NCBI GenBank assembly: GCA_003058525.1
Contig: QBVD01000060.1
Location: forward strand, 1-64,000
Direction: 5' to 3'
Origin: a gamma proteobacterium symbiont of Ctena orbiculata
GTDB taxonomy: Bacteria; Pseudomonadota; Gammaproteobacteria; Chromatiales; Chromatiaceae
DNA length: 64,000 bases
In this document: one piece after another, positions 15,643 through 53,193 of the stretch
Layout: each line of letters opens with the position of its first letter
How positions within the stretch are numbered: the first letter of the stretch is position 1
Notes under the pieces: model-generated
Told to the model about the DNA's origin: nothing
Database searches by the model: none
What the model saw: only the letters and a program-made list of their open reading frames with translations
Position numbers and translations under genes: made by a program

Positions 15643-17517
15643 ATGTTTTATACCAACAGTTATGACGTGATTGTAGTGGGCGGCGGGCATGCCGGTACCG
15701 AGGCGGCACTGGCTGCAGCGCGAATGGGTGCCCGGACTCTGCTGCTCAGTCACAACATCGAGACCCTGGGTCAGATGAGCTGTAATCCCGCCATTGGCGG
15801 TATCGGCAAGGGCCATCTGGTCAAGGAAGTGGATGCCTTGGGTGGAATTATGGCCCATGCGGCGGATCTCGGCGGGATTCAATTTCGCATCCTCAATTCT
15901 CGCAAAGGCGCGGCGGTGCGCGCCACCCGTGCCCAGGCAGATCGGGTGCGCTACAAGGCGGCTGTTCGGTATGCCCTGGAGAATCAAGCCAACCTGGAGA
16001 TCTTTCAGCAGGCGGTGGATGATCTTCTGGTTGAGCAGGAACGGGTGACCGGTGTCGTCACCCAGATGGGGTTGAAGTTTCGCGCCGATGCAGTGGTTTT
16101 GACCGTGGGCACCTTTCTCGGTGGCCGAATCCATATCGGGATGTCCAACTATGAAGGCGGTCGTGCAGGCGATCCACCTGCCAATGCACTTTCCCAGCGA
16201 CTGCGAGAACTTCCCTTTCGTGTCGATCGCCTGAAGACCGGCACCCCGCCCCGAATCGATGGCCGCAGCATCGACTATTCACAGCTGCAGGCTCAGCCAG
16301 GCGATACACCCACACCCGTATTTTCATTTCTGGGGTCGCCCGAGCAGCACCCCCGGCAGGTCAGCTGCCATATCACCCACACCAATCGGGAAACCCATGA
16401 AATCATCCGTGGCGGTCTCTCCCGCTCACCCATGTATACCGGCGTCATCGAAGGTGTCGGGCCTCGCTACTGCCCCTCTATCGAGGACAAGATCGTACGT
16501 TTCGCGGATAAGGAATCGCACCAGATCTTCATTGAACCCGAGGGGCTGGATACCCATGAAGTCTATCCCAACGGTATCTCCACCAGTCTTCCGTTCGATA
16601 TCCAGTACCGCCTGGTTCGTTCCATGAAGGGGTTCGCGAAGGCGCATGTGACGCGGCCCGGTTATGCCATCGAGTATGATTTCTTCGACCCCCGCGATCT
16701 GCAGGCGACACTGCAGACAAAATATCTGCAAGGCCTCTTCTTTGCCGGTCAGATCAATGGCACCACCGGATATGAAGAGGCGGCGGCTCAGGGGCTGCTG
16801 GCCGGGGTTAATGCGGTGCTCTACTGCCGGGAACAACCGCCGTGGACGCCGCGAAGGGATGAGGCCTATCTCGGGGTGATGGTGGACGACCTGATCACTC
16901 AGGGTACCCTGGAGCCGTATCGCATGTTTACCAGCCGGGCCGAGTACCGGCTGTTGTTGCGTGAGGATAATGCCGATCTGCGCCTGACCGAAACCGGCCG
17001 CCATCTCGGTCTGGTCGATGATCGTCGTTGGGAGGCATTCTGCCGCAAACGTGATGCCATCGAACGTGAGCAACAGCGCCTGAAGGGGATCTGGCTTACC
17101 CCCGGCGATGTCGAACCGGCTCAGGTGGAAGCCGTCTTGGGGAGCGTCCTATCCAAAGAGGCCTGTGCCATCAATCTGCTCGCCAGACCGAACGTGGCCT
17201 ATCGGCAACTGATGGGGTTGGCCAAACTGGGTCCGGGCGAAACAGACCCGCAAGTCATCGAACAGCTCGAGGTGCAGGCAAAATATGCCGGTTATATCGA
17301 TCGCCAGCGGGGCGAGATCGAGAAACTGCGCACCAATGAGGCGGTTTTACTGCCCGATGGACTCGATTATGCGACGGTACGCGGACTCTCTTCGGAGGTG
17401 ATGGAGAAACTGCAGCGGCACCGGCCCCAAACCCTCGGGCAGGCAGGGCGTATTCCCGGTGTCACGCCTGCCGCTATCTCCCTGTTGTTGATCCATCTGA
17501 AAAAGCGGTCAGCCTGA
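15643..17517 (+). CDS. mnmG: tRNA uridine-5-carboxymethylaminomethyl modification enzyme MnmG
   Basis: FAD-dependent partner of MnmE in wobble-uridine modification. The 624 residues match the family. The N-terminal FAD-binding motif is [17 protein letters not shown], followed by [17 protein letters not shown], the catalytic-cysteine region and [17 protein letters not shown], then a helical C-terminal domain used for MnmE and tRNA binding. The next gene, rsmG, overlaps its stop by one base (TGATG), as in the classic gidA-gidB pair. Confidence 0.97.
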
Positions 17518-30971: not shown

Positions 30972-32798
30972 ATGTGTGGCATTGTCGGTGGAATCGCACA
31001 ACGGGATGTTGTTCCCATCCTGATGGAGGGTCTGAAACGCCTTGAATATCGGGGTTATGACTCGGCCGGTGTTGCGGTATTGGATGAGCGTCAGCACATT
31101 CAGCGAATTCGTTCGGTAGGCAAGGTCGCCGCGCTCAAGGACCTGATCGATGGCGCCGCACTTTCAAGCAGTCTGGGTATCGCCCATACCCGTTGGGCTA
31201 CACACGGTATGCCGGCGGAGCGCAACGCCCACCCTCATATGAGCGGCGAGCGGGTGGCGATCGTACACAACGGTATTATCGAAAACTATGCCGATCTGCG
31301 TCAGGACTTGAGTGCCAAGGGTTTTACTTTCACCTCTGAGACCGATACCGAGGTCATCGCCCATCTGCTGGCGGATGTGCTGGCATCGGAACCCGATTTC
31401 ATCAAAGCCATACGAAAGGCGAGCAGTAAACTGGTCGGTGCCTATGCGCTGGCTGTTGTCAGCCCGGATGATCCCGATCAGATGGTGGTCATCAGGGCTG
31501 GCAGTCCTTTGGTCATCGGGCTTGGTGTGGGAGAGAACTTTATCGCTTCGGATGTGTTTGCCCTGTTGCCGGTAACACAGCGTTTTATCTTCCTGGATGA
31601 GGGCGACCTGGCTCATGTCTCGAGGGATGAGGTGAAGATTTTCGATGACCAGGGCAGTCAGGTAGAGCGTGAGGTCCGCACCTCTCGAGTTTCCGCATCG
31701 AGCGCGGAAAAAGGACCCTACCGGCACTATATGCTGAAAGAGATCTTCGAACAGCCGGCAGTGATCGCAGAGACCCTGGAGGGACGGATTCATAAGGGCA
31801 AGCTGCTCGAAGATTCATTCGGTTTCGAAGCGAAACAGTTCCTGGACAAGACCCAAAACGTACACATCATCGCCTGTGGCACCAGTTACCACGCCGGCCT
31901 GGTTGCACGCTATTGGCTGGAAGAGGTCGGCGTTCACTGTAGCGTCGAGGTGGCGAGCGAGTTTCGCTATCGGCAGGTGGTGGTGCCCGACAACACCCTG
32001 TTTGTCACGATCTCCCAGTCGGGCGAGACCGCGGATACCCTGGCCGCGTTGCGTGGCGCCGAGACCCAGGGCTATCTGGGAAGCCTGACCATCTGCAACG
32101 TACCCGAAAGCTCGCTGGTGCGGGAATCCAATGTGGTCCTGATGACCCGGGCAGGCCCTGAGATCGGTGTGGCATCCACCAAGGCCTTCACCACCCAGCT
32201 GGTAGCTCTGAGATTGCTGGTCCTTGCCTTGGCAAAGCGCCGCGGCATGAGCACCGAGAGAGAGCGTGAGCTGGTAGAGGAACTGCATGCACTGCCACGT
32301 CAGGTTGAAGTGATCCTGGAGCTGAACGACGCCATCAAAGAGATGGCGAATGCCTTTGCGGAAAAGAACCACGCCCTGTTTCTCGGCAGAGGCAGCTTCT
32401 ACCCGATCGCCATGGAGGGGGCGTTGAAACTGAAAGAGATCTCCTACATCCACGCCGAGGCCTACCCTGCAGGTGAACTCAAACATGGCCCCCTGGCGCT
32501 GGTCGACGCCGAGATGCCGGTGATCTGCGCGCTACCCGACGATCCGCTGTTGGAAAAAGTCATATCGAATCTGCAGGAGGTACGCGCCCGTGGCGGTGAA
32601 CTGTTCCTGTTCAGCGATCAGAAGGTAAAGATCGGCCTGGACCGATACCAGAACCTGACTCTATCCGACATCTATCCTTCCACGGCGCCGATCGTCTATA
32701 CCGTTCCGTTGCAGTTGCTTTCCTATCATGTTGCCATATTGAAGGGGACCGATGTGGATCAGCCGCGGAATCTGGCGAAATCGGTGACGGTAGAGTAG
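30972..32798 (+). CDS. glmS: Glutamine-fructose-6-phosphate aminotransferase (isomerizing)
   Basis: Makes glucosamine-6-phosphate from fructose-6-phosphate and glutamine, the first step of the UDP-GlcNAc pathway. The 608 residues begin MCGIVGG, with the catalytic Cys2 of the N-terminal amidotransferase exposed after Met removal. Two SIS domains follow (ISQSGETADTLAALR and SKAFTTQLVALRLL). The C terminus, DQPRNLAKSVTVE, is the segment whose DNA is recognised by TnsD of Tn7. A Tn7-type element begins 17 bp after the stop codon. Confidence 0.98.
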   Translation: MCGIVGGIAQRDVVPILMEGLKRLEYRGYDSAGVAVLDERQHIQRIRSVGKVAALKDLIDGAALSSSLGIAHTRWATHGMPAERNAHPHMSGERVAIVHNGIIENYADLRQDLSAKGFTFTSETDTEVIAHLLADVLASEPDFIKAIRKASSKLVGAYALAVVSPDDPDQMVVIRAGSPLVIGLGVGENFIASDVFALLPVTQRFIFLDEGDLAHVSRDEVKIFDDQGSQVEREVRTSRVSASSAEKGPYRHYMLKEIFEQPAVIAETLEGRIHKGKLLEDSFGFEAKQFLDKTQNVHIIACGTSYHAGLVARYWLEEVGVHCSVEVASEFRYRQVVVPDNTLFVTISQSGETADTLAALRGAETQGYLGSLTICNVPESSLVRESNVVLMTRAGPEIGVASTKAFTTQLVALRLLVLALAKRRGMSTERERELVEELHALPRQVEVILELNDAIKEMANAFAEKNHALFLGRGSFYPIAMEGALKLKEISYIHAEAYPAGELKHGPLALVDAEMPVICALPDDPLLEKVISNLQEVRARGGELFLFSDQKVKIGLDRYQNLTLSDIYPSTAPIVYTVPLQLLSYHVAILKGTDVDQPRNLAKSVTVE

Positions 32799-32814
32799 CC
32801 GCATCCATATATTT

Positions 32815-32943
32815 TGTTGTGCGGGAATAAAGTCCGTCACATCTGAATAAAGTCCGTCACAGCTGTGCATGGATAGTTGTTCTGGACAATTAAAGTCGAA
32901 AACTAGCTATTAATGTCGTAAACAGGATATTAAAGTCGAGAAC
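32815..32943. repeat. Left (glmS-proximal) transposon end with five repeats
   Basis: After the TGTTG terminus there are five copies of a 15-mer. AATAAAGTCCGTCAC occurs at 32826-32840 and 32846-32860, and the variants ATTAAAGTCGAAAAC, ATTAATGTCGTAAAC and ATTAAAGTCGAGAAC start at 32889, 32909 and 32929. The spacing is exactly 20 bp within each group. The rest of the gap to 33185 shows no gene. Confidence 0.75.
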
Positions 32944-33185
32944 TGGCTTATTTGGGCGAAATGAAAGCTGTCATAGGGAAGTATGAGTATCGTGTTGCTG
33001 GTTAGTATTTGGCGGCTCTACCCAGATGTCCCTAATGCGACCAAAGCGGAACCCGGCGCAAGTGAACAGAGAAACCCACTACTAGCCACAAAGCAGGCTT
33101 TTTAATCTAGAAATTCAGATCAAATCAGAGCTTCTGAAACTAATCGAAGTCGGAGCTAAAACTCCCAAGCCAGAGACACCACGTC

Positions 33186-33587
33186 TCAACTACTTAATTT
33201 CTGAACGATATTTTCAACTTCGATTTTGTCTGTGCACCCAGAGTTTTTTAACCATGAGAAAAAAGTCAATTCTGAACATCCGACAACAAGAGCCTTTAGC
33301 TTCACTTCGCCTACATCTATTTCACGAACTTCCTCATATGCATTGACACTAAATGTAAACTTACTAAGCAAGATCCTTTTCAGAGTATCATCGTCAACAA
33401 AATGCTTCCCTAAAAAGCAAACATACACATAATTTACGCGAAGCACCCCCGTCCTATAATAAAGGGACCCAATAGAAATCTTCGCATCAACCTCATCAAG
33501 CTCTATGTATTTTCGGGAGCACGAATAATGCGCCTTCCCAGCACCGCCATAACCAATTTTTTCCCATTCACCAGTACGGATTGCCAT
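33186..33587 (-). CDS. Hypothetical protein in the glmS-linked element
   Basis: A 133-residue soluble protein that I do not recognise. It starts MAIRTGEWEKIGYGGAGKAH, is predicted mixed alpha/beta, and has three cysteines scattered through it, with no signal peptide or membrane segment. Its ATG overlaps the exchanger stop codon in a TAATG junction, so it is translationally coupled to a CaCA exchanger and probably works with it. Codon use is AT-rich, like the rest of the element. Confidence 0.65.
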   Translation of the reverse strand: MAIRTGEWEKIGYGGAGKAHYSCSRKYIELDEVDAKISIGSLYYRTGVLRVNYVYVCFLGKHFVDDDTLKRILLSKFTFSVNAYEEVREIDVGEVKLKALVVGCSELTFFSWLKNSGCTDKIEVENIVQKLSS

Positions 33588-34642
33588 TACAGATTCACCA
33601 ACTGAATAGTAAATACCACGAACAAGGAAACCAAAGAAACACCCTCAATTCTATTGATATGCCTATCATTCATTATCACACTTGTAATAATGAACATAAA
33701 GAATAGTGATGCCAGCAGAAATATAAGCATATCCGCACGCATTGCCAACGATCCGAACAATGAAATTGACCCTAATATACCAAGAAGGCCAAATATATTT
33801 GACCCAATTATTTCACCAAACAACGCATCAACTTTCTTTTTTCTAACCAGCATAATTGCTGTTGCAATCTCGGGTATGGACGTACCTATAGCAAGCACAG
33901 TTGTCGCTAATTTAGCGCGTGAGACATCTAGAAGAGTTCCTCCTTCTATTAAGGATGAGACCACAAAGTCACCCGAAAAAAATAGTGCTGCCAAACTCAC
34001 CACCAATAAGACAAAACTTCCCGCAATATCCGCTTTATTTTTATTGCTATGTGGCTCTTCATTATCTTTATGGATTTCTGTCGCGATGCCCTCATCAATT
34101 CCCTTTGTGTTTTTAACTGCATCATTTAGATAAAACACGAGCACCACAAGCATAAGTGCGCCCTCGTACCATGAAAGTACCCCGTCGTAGAGGCTCCCTA
34201 ACACGAGGATTACTGCAGTCAGAAAAACCGACATCTGGGTGCCGAAGACATCCTTGTGTACTGTCAAGGCGTATGATGCAATCATTGCCCCACAACCTAT
34301 TCCCAATAAGCTGTTCGCAACGACAGTCCCCAGTACATTCCCGATGACCATTTCGGGCTCTCCTTCGATGGCAGCACCAATCGAAGAGAACAACTCAGGA
34401 GCAGAAGTGCCAATCGCAATTATTAGTATCCCCGTCCCGAGATGGCTTAATCCAAGAATTCCACCAAGGTGAACCGACGCATCTGTAAAGACATCAGCAG
34501 CTTTTACCAATGCGTACAGACTGAAAAGAAAAAGAGCAGCCTCTAGAACTAAAGAGGAAAATGATGGTCTCATGGAAACCAAACCAAAACAGATTGCTAT
34601 GAGCAGAACTACAAGACTAGCTCCCCTAATACTTTCTTTCAT
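33587..34642 (-). CDS. CaCA-family sodium/calcium exchanger-like membrane protein
   Basis: A 351-residue polytopic protein with about ten membrane segments. The two inverted alpha repeats of the Ca2+:cation antiporter superfamily are clear: GTSAPELFSSIGAAIEGEPE with GNVLGTVVANSLLG (about residues 78-113), and GTSIPEIATAI with GEIIGSNIFGLLG (about 245-285). A charged cytoplasmic loop (about 180-205) joins the halves. YrbG-like transporters of this group move Ca2+ or other divalent ions out in exchange for Na+ or H+. It is first in a two-gene unit with the 133-residue protein. Confidence 0.85.
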   Translation of the reverse strand: MKESIRGASLVVLLIAICFGLVSMRPSFSSLVLEAALFLFSLYALVKAADVFTDASVHLGGILGLSHLGTGILIIAIGTSAPELFSSIGAAIEGEPEMVIGNVLGTVVANSLLGIGCGAMIASYALTVHKDVFGTQMSVFLTAVILVLGSLYDGVLSWYEGALMLVVLVFYLNDAVKNTKGIDEGIATEIHKDNEEPHSNKNKADIAGSFVLLVVSLAALFFSGDFVVSSLIEGGTLLDVSRAKLATTVLAIGTSIPEIATAIMLVRKKKVDALFGEIIGSNIFGLLGILGSISLFGSLAMRADMLIFLLASLFFMFIITSVIMNDRHINRIEGVSLVSLFVVFTIQLVNL

Positions 34643-34738
34643 TTAATTCTCAATACAGTGTAGTAACAAACATCAAACTCTTTTTTAATGATCTTGGCTA
34701 GTCAAGAGTTCCTCATACCCAACCTCATAATGTTCACA

Positions 34739-35344
34739 TTAAGTTCTGTAGCCGCCGGGTGGAGGGGAAATTTCATGCTCAACGCAGTACTCCTGGATAG
34801 TCGAGTTGATTTCTTCTAACTCAATCCCCAGTTTACTTCCTCTTCTAACAAACAACTCATACTCCTCATCATCTATCTTTCCATCTGCTCCCGCAATCAC
34901 TAAAGACTCACTAAAGATCTCTTGCTTCCCTCTTTCAGAAACATAACTTAGATACCCCTCTAATCTTTGCGGCTTTGTCACATATTTAGTTAATATTTCG
35001 GTTTCTGGTGGATCAATTTTCTTGTCCGCTCCAGCTGTCGTTATCATGCTTTTTAGAATCTCAAGTTCGATAATCGCTTTTTCCAACTCTGCTTCTTCAA
35101 ATTGGGTGACAGTCATCGTAACGCCACCAATCTGCACTGTGGCCACCTTACCAAAGTAGCTAACAATGGCGTCCAATACTTTTTTTATCTGGGGGAACAG
35201 AATGAAGACCAAAATAAGAAACAAAAGCGGCCAAGCAGCATCTACTACAGCACTAATTAAGAATTCGTAATCGTCTTGAACTACAGTCTGCTGACTCAAA
35301 CTATCAGCACATTTACTACAATCGATTTTTTCATTGCCAGCCAT
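34739..35344 (-). CDS. Membrane-anchored protein with a TerB-like C-terminal domain
   Basis: About 201 residues from the ATG at 35344 (a TTG two codons earlier is also in frame). A short N-terminal part with CSKC (about residues 9-12) is followed by one membrane segment (WPLLFLILVFILFPQI), then a helical region. The C-terminal part has repeated acidic motifs resembling TerB/tellurite-resistance domains: TTAGADKKIDPPE and AGADGKIDDEEYELF, both with a DxxIDxxE pattern that could bind a divalent ion. The pairing with a Ca2+-type exchanger in the same element is suggestive. The family assignment is tentative. Confidence 0.6.
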   Translation of the reverse strand: MAGNEKIDCSKCADSLSQQTVVQDDYEFLISAVVDAAWPLLFLILVFILFPQIKKVLDAIVSYFGKVATVQIGGVTMTVTQFEEAELEKAIIELEILKSMITTAGADKKIDPPETEILTKYVTKPQRLEGYLSYVSERGKQEIFSESLVIAGADGKIDDEEYELFVRRGSKLGIELEEINSTIQEYCVEHEISPPPGGYRT

Positions 35345-36321
35345 AGTCAAATAATTCCAAATTATTCACACGGTATTCGCAGAAAATCAAAAAGCCAACC
35401 CAAATGAATTTAAAACAGGTTTGGCCTTGGACATGAGAAATACCGCCTACAGTCCACAACCATCAAGGAGAATGATCATGTGGCTTTGAATTGCCCCCCT
35501 AAAGCCACAAGCTCAGAAGTGACACTCGCCCATAATGCAAGGTAGACACGACATTATACTGAAGTGATAAGAACATGACCAACGCAGTATAGGTGATTGA
35601 AAATAAACGATATTATCTTCATGCGCGCATTTCAATAGGGTGATAGGGTGTATGGATGCCTTATTGCACGTGAAAGTAATAACTCGGAAACAAGTGACGG
35701 AGTGACAAGCTATATATCTGCATCCTCAACTTTACAGTCGATATACGGTGGTCAAGTTTATTGCCGACACCAGTATCATTAAAACACATCCTCACTGCAT
35801 ACCCGCGCGCGCAATACAAAAATAATTTTCTGCATGCACATTTGCAGAATGTATTGCAGTTAGTTCGAAAATCGACAAGTACAAGCGATGTGAATTTCAA
35901 AGATAGTTAACTGAAGTATTCTTTTAAAAAACTGCCGAAACGGGCGTAAATAAACAGCGTTCATAACGTCCCTGATTGATTCTAAGCGGCGTTCTAAAGC
36001 TTTTTCTTGACACACCTGCAACTAAAACAACTAATAAATGCTGTTGTGACTTACAATTGATATCCATGGAAATGTAGTTGGCTATTACCAAAGCTGGAGA
36101 GTGTCGCCGTGAGTCCAGATCTCTCCTGGATATGAACGTCCGGTTATGGCCGACAGTAGAAGTTGGCCAAATCAGCTTAGAATGCCTGCTTCGTTAGCGA
36201 AGCAGAAGTCTAGAAGGAGCGCCTCAATGTCACTCAGTTGGGTAATCCCGATTGATTATTGCTATATAGGATTTTGTAGGCGCCATTGAAACTGATTAAA
36301 ATAGTAAGCTATTGGATTTTT
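35345..36321. other. Non-coding or degenerate stretch inside the element
   Basis: Roughly 980 bp with no convincing gene. A 79-codon minus-strand frame at 35661-35900 has poor composition and no recognisable motif. A perfect hairpin CTGCTTCG-TTAG-CGAAGCAG lies at 36186-36205. The rest looks like decayed sequence leading to the right transposon end. Confidence 0.5.
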
Positions 36322-36406
36322 TTGACGGACTTTACAGTGAATCTTGACGTGCCAAAATCAATGGCTTAGATAGACTTATTGTGACGGACTTTATTCCCGC
36401 TCAACA
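36322..36406. repeat. Right transposon end with two inverted copies of the end repeat
   Basis: Reading leftward from 36406, the end begins TGTTGAGCGGG and carries AATAAAGTCCGTCAC (36381-36395 as reverse complement) and a second copy, TGTAAAGTCCGTCAA, at 36322-36336. The two copies are 59 bp apart, about three 20-bp steps. The asymmetric number of sites (five left, two right) is typical of Tn7-like ends. Confidence 0.7.
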
Positions 36407-36475
36407 ATATAATGATTGCTCTGATGTTTGACCGTTATTGTTTCAACAGGACCAGCACCGTTTTGTAGATGGTTT

Positions 36476-37801
36476 TTAAATGATTTCAGGTACTTTATAG
36501 GTTGTGGGAATGCGAATACAAAATTCAGCCCCGCCAAGAGGGCTTTCTCCGGCAGTTATGGTTCCGTGATGATTTGTGCAAATACTCTTTGTAATGGAAA
36601 GGCCTAATCCGATACCGCCTGATTCACGTGACCGGCTGGGGTCCAGTCGGGTAAATGGTTCAAAAATCAGCTCTCTTTTGCCAGGTGGGATACCGATTCC
36701 GTCATCGGCCACCTTAATTTGGATGTCATTATCTTGTCGTTGCCAAGAGATCAGCACGTTATGTTGCGCAAAATGGCATGCATTACGGGCCAGGTTGACA
36801 ATTGCTCTTTCGATCAAGTACTCAATTGCCTGAATTTCGATATCCTCTCCCTCATAATTAATAGCGATTCGAGGCGTAATGCTTTTCTGCTTCGCAATGA
36901 CAGAGCGGATCAGTTTAACAACATTGAATGTATTATATTCCCTGATTTTGTCACCATGCTGTAACCGGGAATATTGCAGTACTTCTTTGACCAGTTGATC
37001 CATTTCTTCAAGGGCCGTACAGATATCCTCATACAATGAATCTGCGTCCACGCCGGATTTTGCCGTATTCAGCATTTCAACGGCAAAGTTCAATCGAGCC
37101 ATGGGTGATCTGAATTCATGCGCAACACCATGCAGCAAATCCTGGTGCGCCACTAAAAGGCTTGTACGGCTCTCAACCAGTTTATTCAGATTCTCAGTCA
37201 GTATGTCGAGTTCACGGGAGATATCGCCGGGAGTGCCGGGTTGTGTGTTGTTAAGTCTGGACGCCTTACCGTTACTGTTTAGCAGCGAAATATTATTGAG
37301 AACATTGTTGAGTTGAATTTCAAACGGGTTGATTGCAATATACAAACCCGTGATAGAGAGCGCAATAAGCAGTAGCAGTGATATAAAATCTAGCAATCCA
37401 GAGTTCTGCAGCAGAGAGGCTTTCTCCGAAAGTTCAAGTAGTAAGTCAGGTTCCTTTAATTGTATTAACTGTCTATAAATATTATCCTCATCAAAAAATT
37501 CGAAGAAACCTTTACGCTTGAATTCAGTAGGTTCGGGAAAGTTTATGAAATGTTCGTTTGGATCCAAAACATTTACGGATATTTCGTACTCATTGGCTAT
37601 CTCTCGGATTCCTTCATAGTCAATTTCCGTACTCTGACTGATGTGCTGTTTTAGCTTTTCCCGGACGATCTTAAAATCGACCTTGGGTGTGTGCCCCATA
37701 GAATCAAATTCGATATAGCTATGCAGCCAGGAAGTTAAGATAAACCAAAAGATCAATATCGGAATAATGAAGGCTATACAGCGAAAGTAGAGTGTTTTCA
37801 T
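36476..37801 (-). CDS. RstB-like sensor histidine kinase
   Basis: A 441-residue inner-membrane kinase. Membrane segment 1 is about residues 6-26 (FIIPILIFWFIL), then a ~110-residue periplasmic sensor with no recognised fold, then segment 2 (about 137-158) and a HAMP-like linker. The HisKA box HGVAHEFRSPMARLNFAVEML has the phospho-accepting His228. The ATPase domain shows N-box NLARNACHFAQ, G1 VADDGIGIPPG and G2 SGGIGLGLSI. The VAHEFRSP/PMARL wording resembles RstB. It overlaps the response regulator by 4 nt. The signal is unknown. Confidence 0.85.
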   Translation of the reverse strand: MKTLYFRCIAFIIPILIFWFILTSWLHSYIEFDSMGHTPKVDFKIVREKLKQHISQSTEIDYEGIREIANEYEISVNVLDPNEHFINFPEPTEFKRKGFFEFFDEDNIYRQLIQLKEPDLLLELSEKASLLQNSGLLDFISLLLLIALSITGLYIAINPFEIQLNNVLNNISLLNSNGKASRLNNTQPGTPGDISRELDILTENLNKLVESRTSLLVAHQDLLHGVAHEFRSPMARLNFAVEMLNTAKSGVDADSLYEDICTALEEMDQLVKEVLQYSRLQHGDKIREYNTFNVVKLIRSVIAKQKSITPRIAINYEGEDIEIQAIEYLIERAIVNLARNACHFAQHNVLISWQRQDNDIQIKVADDGIGIPPGKRELIFEPFTRLDPSRSRESGGIGLGLSITKSICTNHHGTITAGESPLGGAEFCIRIPTTYKVPEII

Positions 37802-38499
37802 GCATTATCCACGAATAAGTAGCCCTGCAACCTGACAGTTTTGATTTTGATCCGGCAGTTTTCGTACGCTGAGATTTTTTTTCGTAAGCGAGAGATTCTG
37901 ATATCGAGCGTTCTGTCCATGCCATCGTACTTGAAATGTAAGATATCATTGTATATGTCATCACGTGCTACAACGGTTCCGGCTCTTTTTGCAAGATAGA
38001 CTAGAAGATCGAATTCAGCATCGGTGAAATCGAGTAATGAATCTTCAATATATACTGTGCGACTTCTACAATAAATCGCCATATTCCCGACATTAACAGT
38101 ATCTTCGGACTGTGCATAATCCTTATCACGACGCATTAAAGCTCTTATTCTGGCTAACAGTACTCTTGGTTTAAGCGGCTTGCCGATATAGTCATCCGCA
38201 CCAACTTCCAAACCGACAATTTCATCCACTTCTTCATTGAGCGCGGTTAATATGAGAATCGGGCCGGTATACCATTTGCGTATCTCTTTACACGCCGTCA
38301 GCCCATCTGTATCCGGCATCATAAGATCTAAAATGATAAGTTGGGGTGTATAGGATTTTGTAAATTCGATGGCTTGCAGGCCATTATGTCTTATTGATAC
38401 GTCATATCCGGCATCAATCAGATATTTGCCGACAAGCCTGGTGAAGGGAATATCGTCATCAACCAGCAGTATGGCGTCATTATCACTATGTTTATGCAT
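37798..38499 (-). CDS. RstA-like OmpR-family response regulator
   Basis: A 233-residue regulator with a receiver domain (acidic DDD at 14-16, phospho-accepting Asp58 in LIILDLMMPD, Lys in YIGKPLKP) and a C-terminal winged-helix domain. The latter contains the motif KYDGMDRTLDIRISRLRKKI, close to RstA-type regulators. It is cotranscribed with the kinase. No target promoter was identified; the nearby lipoprotein and protease genes on the same strand are candidates by position only. Confidence 0.88.
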   Translation of the reverse strand: MHKHSDNDAILLVDDDIPFTRLVGKYLIDAGYDVSIRHNGLQAIEFTKSYTPQLIILDLMMPDTDGLTACKEIRKWYTGPILILTALNEEVDEIVGLEVGADDYIGKPLKPRVLLARIRALMRRDKDYAQSEDTVNVGNMAIYCRSRTVYIEDSLLDFTDAEFDLLVYLAKRAGTVVARDDIYNDILHFKYDGMDRTLDIRISRLRKKISAYENCRIKIKTVRLQGYLFVDNA

Positions 38500-39133: not shown

Positions 39134-40807
39134 TTAACTTCCAGGTTGCTTTTTACACTTTGAAAAAACTCTTCGCGAACCGGTGAAAAACATTACCATC
39201 AAGGGTAACAATAAATAATTACCGGCGGCGCCGCCACCACCACTATAGGTTTGTAAAGTATTATTATTGCCGACAGTGGAAAATCGAAATTGATCAAGGT
39301 AACCTGCATCAGCACCCCCGCCATTGCTTTGGTCTCTTACATATAGCCATGTCAGATTATGAGCGCCCTCGGGGATGCTTTCGCTGATGTCAGTCCAGTC
39401 GGTCTCACCATCAATAACAGCTATCAATCTATCGTCAATATAGAAGACGATAGGGTCTGCAGATGATTCTGTAGATGATCTCCAGCGAAAGGATAGAGTG
39501 CCTGGGCCTGTCACCTGGCTATGTAATACGGATATCTGATTATCGAGAATCGCCCCGCTTATTGCAGCAGTGCCGTTGATATAGCCGTGGCTGTCGCTTG
39601 AGTCCTCTCTCCAAGGGGAGTCGCCACCGCTGAACCAGGTTAGTTCATTGTTGTCCAGGGCCATGCCCAGGTCAACGGCTGGCAATGAATCTGCTGAAAT
39701 TTGCACTGTTACTGTAGGGGTTATGGCGTTGGTTGTACTGAATGACAACGTCGCTTCCTTACTACCCTCGGTCATACCTACGAAACGCATATCAATAGAA
39801 CATTTCTCACTCGGTTCCAGTACCTTTTGTTGACAATCATCAGTTACGATCGTGAATTCAGCATCACCCGTGATGACGGTGCTCTGAATGACCTCAGATG
39901 TGCGACTGTTGTTGACCAATGTGACTGTTTTCGTTGTCTCCAAACCCATACCAGTGAAACCCAGTTCTAATCTGGATGGTGATACAGTGATACCATTCAT
40001 CTTGCCGTCTAACCATGCCTGGTATCTGGACACTCTGGTATACACGCCTGGGTGAGTGGCGCTGGCACAGCCCTGACTGCTGCCGAAACTGACAATTCCC
40101 AACAACCGTAGATTGTTGTCACTATCGCGTACCATCAGAGGCCCTCCACTGTCACCATTACATGAATCCCGAGTACCATCGGTACTGCCGGCACAAACCA
40201 TATTGTCTGTAATCGTGATTTCGTCAGTGCTGAGGTAATTGGTTATGCATTGCCCATGATTTCTTAATGGGACATCCGCCTGTAGCAGTTTAAGCGACCC
40301 AGTTGCATCTTCATCTTTGGTTGTAAGTCCCCAGCCGGTAACAAGCAGATTCGTACCATCAGCAAGCCCGTCATCAAATTGAATTGACGCTGTGTTGATC
40401 GGCCGTTTACTTGAAGGCGTTGCAAGTTGCAGCAGTGCGATATCGTGATCACCGCCATATTCAGAATGTATATGGATATAACTGATATCATGTACTTCAC
40501 CATTGCTGCGGTCGGTCAGGCTGGTTCCCCCGATATAGGCTTGAATGTCACCGGCGGATTCGGATTCAACACAATGCGCAGCTGTTAGCATCCATCGTTC
40601 TGCAATCAGGCTGCCACCGCAGAACTGTTCATTGTCAGTTTTGTTTATCAACGCAGTCATCCATGGAAATGTATCAGCCTGTGCGGGCTTTCCACCAATA
40701 ATGCGGTGATTAATTAAACCTTTCCGTTTGCCGTAATCAGCGGCTGCTTGATTGATGCTGATGGTAAACAGAGCGATCATGAGAAATAGGATTTTTATAA
40801 ATTTCAT
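39134..40807 (-). CDS. Secreted trypsin-like serine protease with GlyGly-CTERM-type tail
   Basis: About 557 residues from the ATG at 40807, which has GGGG 6 nt upstream; an in-frame TTG 12 nt earlier is less likely. A signal peptide (to about AAA-DYG) is followed by an S1 protease domain starting RIIGGKPAQADTFPW. The catalytic triad is in TAAHCVE, DHDIALLQL and GDSGGPL, and the protein continues with an ASH/choice-of-anchor-like beta domain. The C terminus has GGGGAAGNYLL, a hydrophobic helix and SRR, matching GlyGly-CTERM signals processed by rhombosortase in Vibrio-type proteases. No rhombosortase gene is in the window. Confidence 0.85.
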   Translation of the reverse strand: MKFIKILFLMIALFTISINQAAADYGKRKGLINHRIIGGKPAQADTFPWMTALINKTDNEQFCGGSLIAERWMLTAAHCVESESAGDIQAYIGGTSLTDRSNGEVHDISYIHIHSEYGGDHDIALLQLATPSSKRPINTASIQFDDGLADGTNLLVTGWGLTTKDEDATGSLKLLQADVPLRNHGQCITNYLSTDEITITDNMVCAGSTDGTRDSCNGDSGGPLMVRDSDNNLRLLGIVSFGSSQGCASATHPGVYTRVSRYQAWLDGKMNGITVSPSRLELGFTGMGLETTKTVTLVNNSRTSEVIQSTVITGDAEFTIVTDDCQQKVLEPSEKCSIDMRFVGMTEGSKEATLSFSTTNAITPTVTVQISADSLPAVDLGMALDNNELTWFSGGDSPWREDSSDSHGYINGTAAISGAILDNQISVLHSQVTGPGTLSFRWRSSTESSADPIVFYIDDRLIAVIDGETDWTDISESIPEGAHNLTWLYVRDQSNGGGADAGYLDQFRFSTVGNNNTLQTYSGGGGAAGNYLLLPLMVMFFTGSRRVFSKCKKQPGS

Positions 40808-41519
40808 TGTATGCCCCAATTTGAATATTGGAGTGTGTATTGAATTAATTAGGCATGTATCTATCTATTCACTTAATGTATCTTTCTGTATCAATCTGTT
40901 CTGGAAGTCGTTGAGATCAGGGATTGATGGAACGGATTCCATATACTGCCGACAAACGCCAGGACGTCTGTCGGAATACAGAGCGGGAATTGAGTAGGGT
41001 TGTTTATAGGAGTGATGATGGACTTGGCCAGTCCCTTCAGCCTCCATCACTCCTTATCTGTCGACCGATTTTTCATGTAGTAGACAGGAAGATGGCTGCT
41101 TTACACCGATCCCGTTTGCCTCAGTGTTTAAGCGCGCAGAAAAGGATGTAAGAATCCTATACTCGATTGTTGGTGTAATTGCACGGTAAATTTCACTTTG
41201 AAAGGTTTACATGGTCCTTCTACACTGGGATTTATATTCCTGTGTACGCTCTCCTAAGTCGTCGCAAGTTCGGCGCCCCTGGTGGCTCATAGGGAAAGGA
41301 TTTCCGGCCTCAGTGTTTCGTAACCTCTGGGGTATCTTGAACCCGGCAAAGGAGTAAGCCAGTCAACATGTCATCGATCTCGGATAATCTCGAAATTTCA
41401 TAATTGTCTGAGGACAAAGAAAACTGAGTATCAATAGTTTTTACGAGGGAAGTTGAAAGGGTGCTTATTTGTTCCGGGTGTTCAACAAGTTTGATTGTCC
41501 CGATACATGGAGGAGAGCG
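40808..41519. other. Long gap between divergent accessory genes
   Basis: About 710 bp without a convincing gene between the protease (minus) and the large metalloprotease-like gene (plus). Short frames at 40924-41151 and 40752-40997 have no homologous look or ribosome-binding site. An imperfect hairpin (GGAGTGATGATGG near 41010, CCATCACTCC near 41044) is the only structure seen. Confidence 0.5.
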
Positions 41520-47439: not shown

Positions 47440-49392
47440 TTACTGCTTTTTAGGCTTCTCGATACCCAGACGCTTCATGCGTGATGCCAGCGTGGTAGGT
47501 TTCAGGCCCAGCAGGTCCGCCGCCCCATCTTTGCCGAATACCTTACCGCCGGCCTGATTCAGTGCTTGCATGATCATCAACCGGTCACGGGCCACGCGCT
47601 CATTCTCTGTCATTAATACGTTGCCCACCGTCTCCGGTTTCTCGTCCGGCGTCAGCGCTGTCTCGGCGATGGTCTCAGGAACCGGCAGGTCCAGGTGGAG
47701 ACGCCCTGTTTGGGTGACGATGACCGCCCGCTCGATGATGTTTTCCAGTTCGCGGACATTACCCGGCCAGCGATGGCTTTTAAGGCGTCTGACGTCACTT
47801 TGGCTGAGATGAATATCCCGCTTGTTGAGTTTACGGCATGTGGTGTGCAGGAAATGGCTTGCCAACAAGGGAATATCCTCGGGACGTTCCCGCAGGGGAG
47901 CCAAGTGGATGGGGAACACCTGCAGGCGGAAATAGAGATCTTCGCGAAAGTTTTTTGCAGTCACCTCGGCTGCCAGGTCCTTATTGGTGGCGGTGATGAT
48001 GCGCACGTCCACGCTACGGGTCTTCTCCTCGCCGATACGCTCGTACTGTCCCTCCTGCAACACCCGCAACAACTTGCCCTGTAACTCAAGAGGTATCTCG
48101 CCCACCTCGTCAAGGAACAGGGTGCCGCCGTCGGCCAGTTCGAACCGCCCTGCACGGTCCCGTGTAGCGCCGGTGAAGGCGCCCCGTATATGGCCGAAGA
48201 ATTCGCTTTCGAACAGATCGCGGGGTATGGCTGCGCAATTGACCCGGATCAGAGGCCGATCGCTACGTTCGCTGCTGACATGTATGGCTCTGGCTATGAG
48301 TTCCTTGCCGGTGCCCGACTCGCCTGTGATCAGGGTGGTGGAATTCGTCGGTGCGACCAACTGAATCTTTTGGATAACCTGACGTATGGCTGAGCTGCTG
48401 CCGATTATCTCCCGGTAGTTGTGCTCGGTGCGGATTTCTTCCTGCAAATAGGCATTCTCTTCCTCCAGCCGCCGCTGCAGGGATTTGACCTGCTCGAGGG
48501 CGCTGCGCAGATTGTTTTCAGCCTCCTTGCGATCACTGATGTCGCGAAAGATGATCACCGCTCCGATGAGCATGCCATGTTCCACGATGGGTGTGCTGGT
48601 GTACTCCACGGGAAATACGCTACCGTCCTTGCGCCAGAATACCTCATCGTCCACGTGGTGCACGGTACCATCATTGAACGCGGCGTAGATAGGACAGTGT
48701 CTGACGGAGTAGTGGGATCCGTCAGGATGTCTGCAGTGCACCATCTGGTGCATATTCTTACCCACAAGCTCATCGGCATTGTAGCCAAGCAGGCGTTCGG
48801 CGGCTGGATTGATGAAGGTGGTGATACCATCCGCATTGACACCGTAGATACCGTCACCGGCTGCCTGCAGGAGTAGTTGGTTGCCCTGTTCGATCTCATG
48901 GAATAGCTGTTCGTACCTGCGCCATTCCGCGAGGCCCCGGCGCACATAGTCGTTGGCGTCGGCTTGTTTACGCAGCCCCTCCACAACCTCTCGATCCTGC
49001 AGGGTGGCGCTCAGCAGTACCTGGTCATTGAGGGTCACCGATCGGGCGTTGCACTCTACCGGTATCACTCTGCCACTGCGGGTTCGGCAGCTGAGTTCAT
49101 TGGTCCAACAAAACCCCTGCACCATAACCGATTGGGTGAACACGACCAGTGCGCTCAACCCCCCGTTGAATAACCAGCTGGGTTTGCTTTGCAGCAGTGT
49201 TTCCATTGGAAATCCCAGTAGGTCCATAGCTGCTCGATTAGCATCGACCATACGATTCTCAACCGGATCGAATACAAGTGTTGCCGTGGGGTGCTGGTCA
49301 AAGAAGTTGTGAAACATCGGCCATCCGGCATCTTTGGAATGCCTGGTCTCCGGGAGGCTGTGGGTTTTAACCTCTGTATCCGATAGGTTCAT
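47440..49392 (-). CDS. PAS-PAS sigma-54-dependent transcriptional activator
   Basis: A 650-residue enhancer-binding protein. The start is the ATG at 49392 with GAGG 8 nt upstream; a TTG five codons earlier is in frame. Two PAS domains (about residues 20-140 and 165-290, the second with GDGIYGVNADGITTFINPAAERLLGY-type wording) precede the AAA+ domain. That domain has GESGTGKELIA, the sigma-54 contact loop GAFTGA, Walker B GGTLFLDEVGEI and the arginine-finger region. The C-terminal helix-turn-helix LLGLKPTTLASRMKRLGI belongs to the FhlA-like group. It is divergent from the transporter-cyanase operon, whose upstream region has matching regulatory signals. Confidence 0.9.
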   Translation of the reverse strand: MNLSDTEVKTHSLPETRHSKDAGWPMFHNFFDQHPTATLVFDPVENRMVDANRAAMDLLGFPMETLLQSKPSWLFNGGLSALVVFTQSVMVQGFCWTNELSCRTRSGRVIPVECNARSVTLNDQVLLSATLQDREVVEGLRKQADANDYVRRGLAEWRRYEQLFHEIEQGNQLLLQAAGDGIYGVNADGITTFINPAAERLLGYNADELVGKNMHQMVHCRHPDGSHYSVRHCPIYAAFNDGTVHHVDDEVFWRKDGSVFPVEYTSTPIVEHGMLIGAVIIFRDISDRKEAENNLRSALEQVKSLQRRLEEENAYLQEEIRTEHNYREIIGSSSAIRQVIQKIQLVAPTNSTTLITGESGTGKELIARAIHVSSERSDRPLIRVNCAAIPRDLFESEFFGHIRGAFTGATRDRAGRFELADGGTLFLDEVGEIPLELQGKLLRVLQEGQYERIGEEKTRSVDVRIITATNKDLAAEVTAKNFREDLYFRLQVFPIHLAPLRERPEDIPLLASHFLHTTCRKLNKRDIHLSQSDVRRLKSHRWPGNVRELENIIERAVIVTQTGRLHLDLPVPETIAETALTPDEKPETVGNVLMTENERVARDRLMIMQALNQAGGKVFGKDGAADLLGLKPTTLASRMKRLGIEKPKKQ

Positions 49393-49432
49393 ATGAACAG
49401 ACCTCAATATTCACTGAGATACTACAAAATCT

Positions 49433-49476
49433 CGTGTTTTCGATTACGTGTTTTCGTGATTTACGTATTTTCGTAG
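49433..49476. promoter_or_regulatory. Tandem ACGTRTTTTCGT repeats, candidate activator sites
   Basis: Three copies of CGTRTTTTCG occur at 49433-49442, 49447-49456 and 49464-49473, the last two extended to ACGTGTTTTCGT and ACGTATTTTCGT. They lie 70-115 bp upstream of the -24/-12 promoter, the usual distance for sigma-54 enhancers, and next to the activator gene. The wording resembles the TTTCGTACGAAA box of FhlA-type activators, which fits this regulator's HTH group. Confidence 0.6.
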
Positions 49477-49545
49477 TCCCGTAAGTCACCGCTATTTCTG
49501 ATGTATTTCCCAACTAAACAGCAGCTTACGTTTGAATTTCATAGT

Positions 49546-49561
49546 TGGCACGGTAGCTGCA
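49546..49561 (+). promoter_or_regulatory. Sigma-54 (-24/-12) promoter of the transporter-cyanase operon
   Basis: TGGCACG-GTAG-CTGCA matches the RpoN consensus TGGCACG-N4-TTGCA at all but one position, with exact GG-N10-GC spacing (GG at 49547-49548, GC at 49559-49560). Transcription would start near 49572 and run into the ABC transporter genes, giving a leader of about 230 nt. Confidence 0.8.
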
Positions 49562-49572
49562 ATTCTCTTGTA

Positions 49573-49800
49573 AAGACGGGGTGCGCTTCGGAATTGTTTC
49601 AGCGCCGTCAGTCCGTCCAGGTACGCACAAATTTTGTGCGGTTTTGGTAGAGGTTGTGCGTCCCTGCACCAGTATCGTCCCTGTTTCGCGTTCAACGGCG
49701 GGTTTGTGAACCCGCACTTCGAAAAGGGCAGGAACCGTGCCATGCAGGTGGCTGACCGCATCGCCGACGTTTGAATCGAACAAGCTACAAGGGGTTTAAC
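49573..49800 (+). other. Structured 5' leader of the transporter-cyanase operon
   Basis: About 230 nt lie between the predicted start site and the first ATG. Hairpins include CGCACAAA-T-TTTGTGCG (49624-49640) and GCGGGTT-TGTG-AACCCGC (49698-49715). An AGGGG ribosome-binding sequence precedes the ATG at 49801. The leader is longer than needed and could be regulatory, but it matches no riboswitch that I can recognise. Confidence 0.45.
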
Positions 49801-51327
49801 ATGGCAAACAAAAGTCTCGGCAATCCGTTTGATGCGGATACCGATCTTCAGCACGGTCCTGCGTGCAACTGCCCCATCTGTGTTTTTCAGAAGGAGCAGA
49901 TCCAGAGTAACTACGAATGCAGTGAAACCGAGTTGACCGAGCGATTGGAACGGGCGGTCTTTGAAGGCATCGCCACACCCGGGATGGATGAGTTGGCGGC
50001 TGCGGAACAGGCCGAGATCGCTGTCGACGAATCAGCGCAGACGGCAGTTGAGGATCCCAATCCTCTCGAGAGCTCCGAAGATGTCTTGGACCGGGTCGTC
50101 GAGAGTGCGGTGGTGCGTGGCATTTTCGGACACGACGACATGAGCCGCAGGGATTTCATGCGCCTGGTGGGTGGTGGCGCCTTCGCAGCCATGCTAGGCA
50201 GTATGCTGCCCATGGATGAGGTCAAAGCGGCAATCAAGGACAATCTCGGCAAACCGGAAAAGTCGAAGCTGAAGGTCGGATTTGTGCCGATCACCTGCGC
50301 CACGCCTATCATCATGGCTCATCCCATGGGCTTCTATGCCAAATACGGCCTGGATGTGGACGTCATCAAGACGGCTGGATGGGCGGTGGCCCGGGATAAA
50401 TCCTTGGCAAAGGAGTATGACGCCAGCCACATGCTGACACCGATGCCACTGGCCATCACCATGGGTTCCGGCTCCACGGCGGTACCATTCCGTATGCCTG
50501 CTGTAGAGAATATCAACGGCCAGGCCATCGTGCTGCACGTCAAACACAAGGATAAACGCGATCCTAAGGATTGGAAGGGCTTCAAGTTCGGTGTGCCGTT
50601 CGACTACTCCATGCATAACTTCCTGTTGCGTTACTACGTGGCGGAACACGGCATCGATCCTGACAAGGATATCCAGATCCGCGTGGTACCGCCGCCGGAA
50701 ATGGTGGCTAACCTGCGGGCCGGCAATCTGGACGGTTACCTGTCGCCGGATCCATTCAACCAGCGGGCGGTATGGGAGAAGGTGGGATTCATTCACACCC
50801 TCACCAAGGATATCTGGCCGGGCCATCCGTGCTGCGCTTTTGCCTGCTCCGAGGAGTTCGCCACCACTCTGCCGAACACCTACGCGGCGTTACTGAAGTC
50901 CATAGTGGATGCCACCGCCTACTCCTCAAAGCATGAAAATCGCAAGGAGATATCAAAGGCCATCGCACCAAAGAACTATCTCAATCAGCCGGTGCCTGTT
51001 ATCGAACAGGTGTTGACCGGTAAATACGCAGATGGTTTGGGTAAAGTGCATAACGTCCCAGATCGAATCGATTTCGACCCCTTCCCATGGCACTCCATGG
51101 CGGTCTGGATCCTGACCCAGATGAAGCGTTGGGGTTATGTGAAAGGGAATGTGGATTACAAGAAGATCGCGGAAGAGGTCTATCTGGCCTCCGATGCGGG
51201 ACGCATGATGAAGGAGCTGGGTTATCCGGTACCGGATCATACCTATGAGTCCTACGAAATTATGGGTAAGGCGTTCGATCCGGCCAAACCCGACGCATAT
51301 GTCCAGAGCTTCGCCATTAAACGTTAG
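49801..51327 (+). CDS. NitT/TauT-family ABC transporter substrate-binding protein with N-terminal Cys motif and internal Tat signal
   Basis: A 508-residue protein of the NrtA/CmpA/CynA class. The ATG at 49801 has AGGGG upstream. A soluble N-terminal ~110 residues carry CNCPIC (Cys22, 24, 27). Only then comes a twin-arginine signal, SRRDFMRLVGGGAFAAMLGS, at residues 115-134, so the Tat motif is preceded by an unusually long leader domain. The rest is a periplasmic-binding fold (LKVGFVPITCATPIIMAHPMGFY-type start, then PPPEMVANLRAGNLDGY). Substrate is probably cyanate or a similar anion, judged from cynS downstream; nitrate, bicarbonate or a sulfonate remain possible. Confidence 0.85.
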   Translation: MANKSLGNPFDADTDLQHGPACNCPICVFQKEQIQSNYECSETELTERLERAVFEGIATPGMDELAAAEQAEIAVDESAQTAVEDPNPLESSEDVLDRVVESAVVRGIFGHDDMSRRDFMRLVGGGAFAAMLGSMLPMDEVKAAIKDNLGKPEKSKLKVGFVPITCATPIIMAHPMGFYAKYGLDVDVIKTAGWAVARDKSLAKEYDASHMLTPMPLAITMGSGSTAVPFRMPAVENINGQAIVLHVKHKDKRDPKDWKGFKFGVPFDYSMHNFLLRYYVAEHGIDPDKDIQIRVVPPPEMVANLRAGNLDGYLSPDPFNQRAVWEKVGFIHTLTKDIWPGHPCCAFACSEEFATTLPNTYAALLKSIVDATAYSSKHENRKEISKAIAPKNYLNQPVPVIEQVLTGKYADGLGKVHNVPDRIDFDPFPWHSMAVWILTQMKRWGYVKGNVDYKKIAEEVYLASDAGRMMKELGYPVPDHTYESYEIMGKAFDPAKPDAYVQSFAIKR

Positions 51328-51398
51328 ACCGTGTGTCGGCGGGGTCGGGGGGTCTCTTCCACCCGGCCCCTTAACAAAACAGAGGGGAAACCGAAGTT

Positions 51399-52229
51399 AT
51401 GCTGCAGTCTCTAAACATGCGAGCCACAGTGCTGGCCGTCACTTTCCTGGCCGTCATGCTCGGCCTCTGGGAAATGGCCAATCAAGCGCCGCAAGCGAAG
51501 AAGGCATTGACCGAATATGAGATCCTCATGGGCGGTGCCGACCAGGAGGCGCGAGTACCGCCACCGTCCAAGGTCATTGGTCTGGCAGTGGATGAATTGT
51601 CCGATCCCTTCTACGACAAGGGTCCCAATGACAAGGGTATCGGCATCCAGCTTGGCTACTCCATCTATCGGGTCCTGGCCGGTTACTTCATGGCGGCCGT
51701 TATCGCCATACCGGTCGGCTTCCTGATCGGCATGTCGCCGTTGATCCAAAAGGCATTGAATCCCTTCATTCAGGTGTTGCGTCCCATCTCACCACTGGCC
51801 TGGATGCCGCTGGCCCTTTTTATCATCAAGGATTCGGAGGCCAGCTCTATCTTTGTTATTTTCATCTGTTCCATCTGGCCGATGTTGATCAACACGGCTT
51901 TCGGTGTGGCCAATGTGCGCAAGGACTGGCTGAATGTGGCCCGTACACATGAGCTTTCGCCGGTGCGTACCGCATTCACCGTGATCCTGCCGGCGGCGGC
52001 ACCCACAATTCTCACCGGCATGCGTATCTCCATCGGCATCGCCTGGTTGGTCATCGTCGCTGCCGAGATGCTGGTGGGTGGCACGGGGATCGGGTATTAC
52101 GTGTGGAACGAGTGGAACAACCTCGATCTCACCAGCGTTATTTTCTCCATTCTGATGATCGGTATCGTAGGCATGCTGCTAGATATGGCGTTGTCCGGTG
52201 CCACCCGTCTGGTCACCTATAAGGAATAA
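51399..52229 (+). CDS. NitT/TauT-family ABC transporter permease
   Basis: A 276-residue inner-membrane permease with about six membrane segments; the first (TVLAVTFLAVMLGLWEM) is at the N terminus. The EAA-type loop for contact with the ATPase is LNVARTHELSPVRTAFTVILPAAAP. It starts at an ATG 71 nt after the binding protein with GAGGGG upstream, and the ATPase gene follows 7 nt later. It corresponds to NrtB/CynB. Confidence 0.9.
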   Translation: MLQSLNMRATVLAVTFLAVMLGLWEMANQAPQAKKALTEYEILMGGADQEARVPPPSKVIGLAVDELSDPFYDKGPNDKGIGIQLGYSIYRVLAGYFMAAVIAIPVGFLIGMSPLIQKALNPFIQVLRPISPLAWMPLALFIIKDSEASSIFVIFICSIWPMLINTAFGVANVRKDWLNVARTHELSPVRTAFTVILPAAAPTILTGMRISIGIAWLVIVAAEMLVGGTGIGYYVWNEWNNLDLTSVIFSILMIGIVGMLLDMALSGATRLVTYKE

Positions 52230-52236
52230 CGAACCT

Positions 52237-53193
52237 ATGACAACAAAACATTTTTTTGTCGAGGCGGAAAACCTTTCCAAACGATTCAAGACCAAGGATG
52301 GGGAGTTAACGGTATTCGAGAATGCCAATTTCGGCATTCATAAGGGTGAGTTCGTCTGCATAATCGGCCACTCCGGGTGCGGTAAGTCCACCATCATGAA
52401 TATCCTGGCCGGCCTTGACGGCGCCAGCGACGGCGTCCTGTTCATGGACAGCAAAGAGGTGGGTGGTCCGGCCTTGGAACGGGGTGTTGTATTCCAGAAC
52501 TATAGCCTGCTGCCCTGGCTGAGCGCCCTCAAAAACGTCACATTCGGGGTACGCGCCCGCTGGCCCCAGTGGAGCCGCGAGCAGGTGCGGGAACATGCCT
52601 ATAAATATCTGCAGATGGTGGGCCTGGGGGATGGCGCGGAGGAACGCAAACCGTACGAACTCTCCGGCGGTATGCGCCAGCGGGTCTCCATCGCCCGCGC
52701 CTTTGCCATAGAGCCCAAACTGTTGCTGCTGGACGAGCCTTTTGGGGCGCTGGATGCACTGACACGCGGCAATATCCAGGATGAGCTGCTGAAGATCTGG
52801 AACGAGACCCATCAAACGGTGTTCATGATTACTCATGACGTAGACGAGGCGATCCTGCTGGCCGATCGCATATTGCTGATGACCAACGGTCCCTATGCGC
52901 GTATCGCCGAATCGGTGAAGGTGGCTATCCCGAGACCCCGGGACCGCACCTCGATCATCCACGACCCGGCTTACTATCCGATTCGCAATCATCTGGTGGA
53001 TTTCCTGGTCATGCGATCCAAGGAGCTTGCAGGTGGTCCTGTCGCTGAGCGGGAGACACAGGACGAGAGTGGTAAGCCGGATGGTTATGTCAGGGTGTTT
53101 CCGGAAGAGGTCAATCCGGCCCGGGGAATTTGTGCCGTGCAGGACGCACAGACAGTGAATCGGTATGCAGACAAGGAGCGCGTAACAGTATGA
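52237..53193 (+). CDS. NitT/TauT-family ABC transporter ATP-binding protein
   Basis: A 318-residue ATPase corresponding to NrtD/CynD. Walker [11 protein letters not shown]-loop [12 protein letters not shown], signature [14 protein letters not shown], Walker [13 protein letters not shown] and the switch THDVDEA are intact. A C-terminal extension of about 60 residues beyond the domain has no recognised motif. The start is the ATG at 52237; the frame is open to 52198 inside the permease gene. Its stop overlaps the CobW-family start in an ATGA junction. Confidence 0.93.

Follow-up and report, generated by a model that had tools for sequence, protein, structure and literature searches.

A cargo segment with Tn7-style ends beside glmS in a Candidatus Thiodiazotropha symbiont

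The segment beside glmS and its ends

Analysis of a 64,000-nucleotide stretch from the gammaproteobacterial symbiont of Ctena orbiculata (assembly GCA_003058525.1, contig QBVD01000060.1, positions 1 to 64,000; hereafter the window) revealed a cargo-bearing segment with Tn7-style ends directly downstream of glmS, as an earlier note made from the sequence alone had observed. The genome belongs to Candidatus Thiodiazotropha, comprises 4.74 Mb and is labelled G000, with the window on its contig C19; G-, C- and L-numbers denote genomes, contigs and sequence stretches, respectively. The segment (32815–36406, 3592 bp) is AT-rich, with a GC content of 0.413 compared with 0.525 for the window and 0.572 for glmS, and is bounded by a 32-nt inverted repeat (arms 32810–32841 and 36380–36411, 94% complementary), in agreement with the near-identical TGTTG repeats described earlier. 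The terminal 26-mers are TGTTGTGCGGGAATAAAGTCCGTCAC (32815, + strand) and TGTTGAGCGGGAATAAAGTCCGTCAC (36406, − strand). The glmS gene ends at 32798, leaving a 16-bp spacer between stop codon and terminus; the distance of 17 bp given before marks the same position and counts the first base. Two end types, A and B, are distinguished, with the glmS-proximal end called the right end, the distal end the left end, and site positions counted from the terminus. The features are as follows.

30972–32798, +: glmS open reading frame (ORF), with the presumed TnsD target (the Tn7 attachment site, attTn7) at its 3′ end
32815–32877, +: type A glmS-proximal end (putative functional right end) with terminus TGTTGTGCGGG; R1 and R2 are spaced by 20 bp
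32826–32840, +: A site R1, AATAAAGTCCGTCAC
32846–32860, +: A site R2, AATAAAGTCCGTCAC
32878–33056, +: type B right end, terminus TGTTCTGGACA, nested in the A end
32889–32943, +: three B sites (32889, 32909, 32929) at 20-bp steps
33186–33587, −: cargo ORF of 133 aa, no family match
33587–34642, −: cargo, Na+/Ca2+ exchanger family protein (PF01699, 6.4e-47)
34739–35350, −: cargo, weakly TerB-like protein (5.1e-5, slightly below the Pfam cut-off)
36323–36333, −: A site L2 of the distal end
36356–36368, + (− relative to the end): predicted integration host factor (IHF) site, consensus match AATCAATGGCTTA, between L1 and L2
36382–36406, −: type A distal end (putative functional left end), terminus TGTTGAGCGGG and site L1

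The A terminus consists of TGTTG, 9 bp and then AAAGTCCGTCA. The 15-mer AATAAAGTCCGTCAC occurs exactly at three places in the whole genome, all within the ends of this element, so it is not the common intergenic repeat that the earlier note had named as a possible refutation. With up to two mismatches it yields 7 matches across the genome against 9 for a reversed control pattern, and these looser matches are therefore regarded as background. The earlier note counted five repeats in the glmS-side end, mostly at 20-bp steps, and two in the distal end. The 20-bp steps hold within each type, the five repeats being two A sites and three B sites; the B end begins at 32878 with TGTTCTGGACAATTAAAGTCG, 63 bp into the element, and its first site lies 43 bp after R2. 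The two distal A sites are 59 bp apart, not 20. The segment is thus a composite in which a B right end is nested within an A right end, bearing out the earlier suspicion of mixed ends, and at least two insertions have therefore used the glmS site. A B left end was not detected in the glmS region of the window.

Comparison of the A ends pointed to a shared geometry. G006 and G191 C81 each have right-end sites at positions 15, 35 and 67; the window retains those at 15 and 35, with end B in place of its third site, and the other right ends examined have one site. On the left, four copies (G000, G191 C81, G191 C7 and the second element of G190) have sites at 15 and 74–76; the second site is at 86 in the first element of G190, and none was seen in G024 or in the doubtful G020 C11. 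In G002 an insert of about 1 kb splits the left end at the position of the second site. Six of the eight left ends match the IHF consensus WATCARNNNNTTR perfectly at 39–41, against none of the ten right ends and 23 of 2035 background windows; the match in the G024 left end is on the opposite strand. The conserved geometry pairs a compact end next to glmS with a distal end whose two sites, about 60 bp apart, flank a predicted IHF site, an arrangement shared with the left ends of type I-F CRISPR-associated transposons. In G013 and G014 a type B end by itself immediately follows glmS; in G002 a decayed B end follows the type A left end.

Recurrence of the ends and turnover of the cargo

The comparison covered 22 genomes of the genus and 210 of the order Chromatiales, with glmS-downstream sequence taken from 21 of the 22 (G017 left out). 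An A terminus lies 16–22 bp past the glmS stop in 6 of these 21 genomes at scores reached by none of the 2035 background windows, under a matrix built from ten ends that include some from the scored glmS loci themselves. G004 carries a decayed terminus 17 bp past the stop that still scores above all background windows, and G012 a marginal one equalled by one background window; by the matrix score, none lies within 130 bp of glmS in the other 13 of the 21. An A copy is located about 122 bp past the stop in G016, and another 15 bp after glmS in G191, a member of a different genus. The compact-type terminus faces glmS in all six genus genomes and in G191. When GGGAATAAAGTCCGTCAC was searched with up to two mismatches in the 22 genus genomes, 12 matches were found in seven genomes, ten of them at the glmS locus (three in G000, two each in G002 and G006, one each in G005, G016 and G020) and two elsewhere (G011 C156 and G020 C11). 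The reversed control matched 19 times in the same genomes, so that lone two-mismatch matches carry little weight and it is their position that counts. Across the order, the 26-bp terminus (up to three mismatches) was found at 16 places in 10 of the 210 genomes, with no control match among them; the carriers outside the genus are G024, G190 and G191.

More than one element is also stacked downstream of glmS in G190, where an end of the L1–IHF type is abutted by a second element (48142–53981), with a further end 2 bp beyond; the glmS-side right end of the first element was not clearly identified. The cargo of this glmS-side element (G190:C9 54238–62242; L129, L134, L135) includes a Tle1-like lipase-domain protein, a caspase-domain protein and an LmuA-like metallo-beta-lactamase-fold protein (PADLOC, 2.3e-70), and is possibly a defence island. 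Separately, G018 contains a second, partial glmS (G018:C6:151204–151659, L059) covering codons 456–607, with a 93% identical protein; it has a stop codon of its own, is followed by different sequence and represents a displaced copy of the attTn7 region.

Comparison of the glmS-downstream regions revealed cargo turnover. In G005, of the same species, and in G002, the A-type ends at this place enclose other genes; L1 is missing from G005, whose match to the common backbone begins inside the former element. No match to the window cargo segment (33057–36305) was seen in the 20 other glmS-downstream regions, 8 of which extend over less than 7 kb because contigs end; the uninterrupted orthologous region with the exchanger genes that would have spoken against an insertion was thus not encountered. 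A precise empty site, which the earlier note had proposed to look for in close relatives, was likewise not found among the regions compared. Five genomes (G001, G009, G010, G011 and G021) show no ends; a different reading frame lies about 100 bp past glmS in each, and their distal flank is unlike that of the window. Beyond the distal end, the window encodes an RstAB/CpxAR-like histidine kinase and response regulator (36476–38499); G005 lacks this pair at the same place, and the trypsin-like gene farther on (window 39134–40819) is truncated there.

A copy outside glmS provided the clearest insertion. The 2.55-kb element in G191 C81 (38591–41141) has both ends and no transposition genes, and interrupts a DUF2177 gene. 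Among removals of 3, 4, 5 or 6 bp together with the element, the 4-bp removal alone keeps the DUF2177 frame on both sides, and the restored protein matches PF09945 in a single stretch (model positions 1–124 of 124 over residues 4–127). The target duplication of this copy is therefore 4 bp (ACTG), unless a 5-bp duplication lost a base. In G020 C11, where two ends lie 7.4 kb apart, no duplication was found.

Search for transposition machinery and a helper

The three element ORFs longer than 100 aa matched no transposase-like family and no PADLOC model. No cas-like ORF was present among them, and no CRISPR array emerged from a general repeat search, which was not aimed at arrays. Neither TnsA (PF08722) nor TniQ (PF06527) was found in the 22 genus genomes, in searches that had no positive control at this level; the order-level searches supplied one, with TnsA in 14 of 210 genomes (7 above the cut-off) and TniQ in 7 (6 above the cut-off). 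Mu-transpos_C (PF09299, TnsB type) was detected in none of 25 genomes, comprising the genus members and the other carriers, and was present in both controls, G175 and G087. G190, G191 and G024 also lacked all three families, and no remnant of them was found at E ≤ 0.001 in the 25 genomes, the models for TnsC and the TnsD C-terminal part not having been searched. The earlier note had reported no transposase, TnsC or TniQ gene; this holds for TnsA, TniQ and Mu-transpos_C across the whole genome and genus. Draft assemblies do not account for the missing machinery, because G005 and G008 are single-contig genomes.

Candidate helpers were also considered. The control loci G175:C48 and G087:C157 (L103, L105) are Tn7-like, with TnsA, TniQ and TnsB-type matches, and are presumably inserted in a ComM-like gene; they are no obvious helper, because other repeats precede their tnsA. 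The orfAB genes within the G190 element and the fragments in the G191 element, which we take to be IS3-like, are treated as passengers rather than movers because their orientations relative to the ends are opposite in the two genomes. A strict-pattern scan of genome contigs returned five stretches: three lucinid-symbiont records, one Chromatiales metagenome-assembled genome (G191) and L078, a lone match within a reading frame that was taken as chance. A class-level sample of 369 genomes added G219 alone, with one two-mismatch match and no array in the stretch shown. Viral contigs contained no A terminus and neither of two B patterns, and the loose tandem pattern matched once, in a repeat array without an A terminus; separately, viral contig L187 carries an iteron-like array of roughly 19–20-bp repeats, AATAAAGTCGGTAAATAG, at 3576–3780. 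Phages gave no A match and one B match at E = 8.

Among plasmids, the A left end had no match and the G006 right end one 25-bp match at E = 3. B-type ends with a matching third site were found on two Polaromonas JS666 plasmids and one Diaphorobacter plasmid, and no tns gene was annotated in the stretches shown around them, the PLSDB gene table being incomplete. Other plasmid matches at E ≥ 1 were taken as chance, the Diaphorobacter match being retained for its site spacing. The arrays on these Burkholderiales plasmids (L131 12008–12130, L188 about 15990–16086, L189 10002–10083) share an inner sequence resembling GCATCCATGCGG. A full tns-bearing element with the same ends, for which the earlier note had proposed a search, was not found in the collections searched.

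Interpretation and alternatives

Tn7 inserts with its compact end towards glmS, as does the window element, and the ends of VchCAST (Tn6677), a type I-F CRISPR-associated transposon (CAST), start with TGTTG, as do those described here. Tn7 inserts about 20 bp beyond the glmS stop (PMC2918618), close to the 16 bp observed here, and its ends are asymmetric, with several transposase sites closely packed in one end and spread out in the other (PMC13370975), a pattern that the putative TnsB sites of the window element resemble. Unlike Tn7, the window element carries no tns genes, combines a 14-bp lead with AAAGTCCGTCA sites and has a predicted IHF site at its distal end, and no 5-bp duplication was seen. 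The two terminal TnsB sites of the VchCAST left end flank an IHF site, and efficient transposition requires IHF, a dependence shared by some type I-F relatives only (PMC10201428, PMC13370975); the 20-bp spacing in the compact end and the IHF consensus between terminal sites of the other end only are similar here. The window element differs from VchCAST in its location at glmS, in its site sequence, in the usual two left sites of A elements compared with three, and in the lack of Cascade (cas), tniQ and tns genes, with no TniQ in the genome. Benler et al. attribute multiple left and right ends to insertion in or next to an existing element (PMC8649781), which matches the nested ends of the window. 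Stacking as in the window (A and B), G002 and G190 is likewise known from Bacillus cereus BCEGI-1, where two elements follow glmS, each with a tnsABCD set; none was found here (PMC2359905). Miniature inverted-repeat transposable elements (MITEs) and other non-autonomous elements share helper dependence and ends without a transposase; the present elements differ from MITEs in their kilobase-scale variable cargo, multi-site asymmetric ends and fixed attachment site.

Because site, orientation, end architecture and the IHF match combine, we favour a Tn7-like reading: the segment is probably a Tn7-like element with its transposition genes missing, whether it arrived without them or lost them later. 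The earlier interpretation is thus partly supported: its Tn7-type ends, attTn7 position, missing machinery and mixed ends hold, and the movement in trans that it suggested is one candidate history beside loss of the genes after insertion. Small copies that have both ends, together with the missing tns remnants, incline us to arrival without the genes, as a helper-dependent element at attTn7, a view held tentatively at not quite even confidence. Under this reading, a TnsD-type selector would bind the glmS 3′ end, and TnsABC-type proteins from another element would insert the segment, itself free of tns genes, 16 bp past the stop. Bending of the left end by IHF may then bring transposase at L1 and L2 together with the compact right end; in this model the glmS-proximal end is the functional right end and the distal end (L1, IHF site, L2) the functional left end. 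With no machinery found in the host or sampled relatives, the element should therefore stay put unless a helper arrives.

Several results weigh against this reading. None of the collections searched yielded an autonomous partner carrying these ends. At the window copy, flanked by TATTT and ATATA, there is no target duplication of 4 or 5 bp; the earlier note had already reported the lack of a 5-bp one. The main result against membership in the Tn7-like transposons is the duplication of 4 bp in the one clean copy, G191 C81, and not the 5 bp called characteristic of Tn7 and all its relatives (PMC11406308). Since both encoded machinery (TnsA/TnsB and TniQ/TnsD-type proteins) and a 5-bp duplication were tested for and not found, such membership is not claimed. 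In addition, five glmS-side genus ends (G005, G002, G020, G008 and G016) have a single right-end site, and the IHF match is missing from two of the eight left ends (G191 C7 and G020 C11); both observations fit decay as well.

Decay is central to the first alternative, in which full Tn7-like elements entered attTn7 by the same insertion mechanism and lost tnsABCD by deletion in each lineage, leaving the ends as scars and the cargo domesticated. The five single-site right ends, the decayed G004 terminus, the missing L1 of G005, the insert in the G002 left end and the nested ends of the window agree with such a history, which we consider a serious possibility, only slightly less likely than arrival without the genes. 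Against it stand the absence of TnsA, TniQ and Mu-transpos_C remnants, the entirely different cargo of close relatives at one site, and the fresh-looking duplication of the short G191 copy with both ends.

Movement by another DDE transposase preferring the region after glmS, for example an IS21-like one, is improbable. IS21-like ends can also carry repeats, and the 4-bp duplication and the lack of Tn7 machinery in the carriers searched would suit it; the position, asymmetric ends and IHF site, however, fit Tn7-like elements. For IS21-like enzymes in particular, IstB (PF01695) had no strong match in 7 of 12 genomes searched (G191, G190, G002, G006, G008, G013 and G024), and ten IstB loci in other genomes showed only scattered single matches with 2–3 mismatches and no A or B arrays, IstA not having been searched. 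Ordinary intergenic repeats or chance can be dismissed almost entirely: the sites are short and two-mismatch matches are at background level, yet the 32-nt inverted repeat, the confinement of the exact site to one place in the genome, the recurrence at glmS and the insertion into the G191 DUF2177 gene all speak against them. As a separate observation, G000 contains seven IstB-like 3′-end fragments (C11, C23, C24, C100, C104, C109 and C111), five of about 111 bp at or near contig edges, which suggests a recently multiplied insertion sequence.

A broader and more speculative proposal, which we regard as unlikely though worth stating, is a satellite-like lineage of cargo-only transposons that occupies attTn7 in Chromatiales as well as plasmids of Burkholderiales. 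It would comprise two or more end families, A (whose left end is bridged by IHF) and B, would never encode a transposase and would be served by an unrecognised helper that leaves 4-bp duplications. A literature search, with subscription papers mostly outside its reach, recognised no report of Tn7-like elements at attTn7 that naturally lack tns genes, nor of Thiodiazotropha carrying Tn7 ends. Surveys that start from transposase genes, as Benler et al. 2021 (PMC8649781) is understood to do, would miss cargo-only elements. A defined end family with an IHF site, a constant attachment site and many different cargoes permits searching by ends, and allows one to ask how often helper-dependent elements build attTn7 islands and to test which TnsABC-type proteins mobilise such ends. 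For the symbionts of lucinid clams, the glmS flank is a hotspot of gene turnover.

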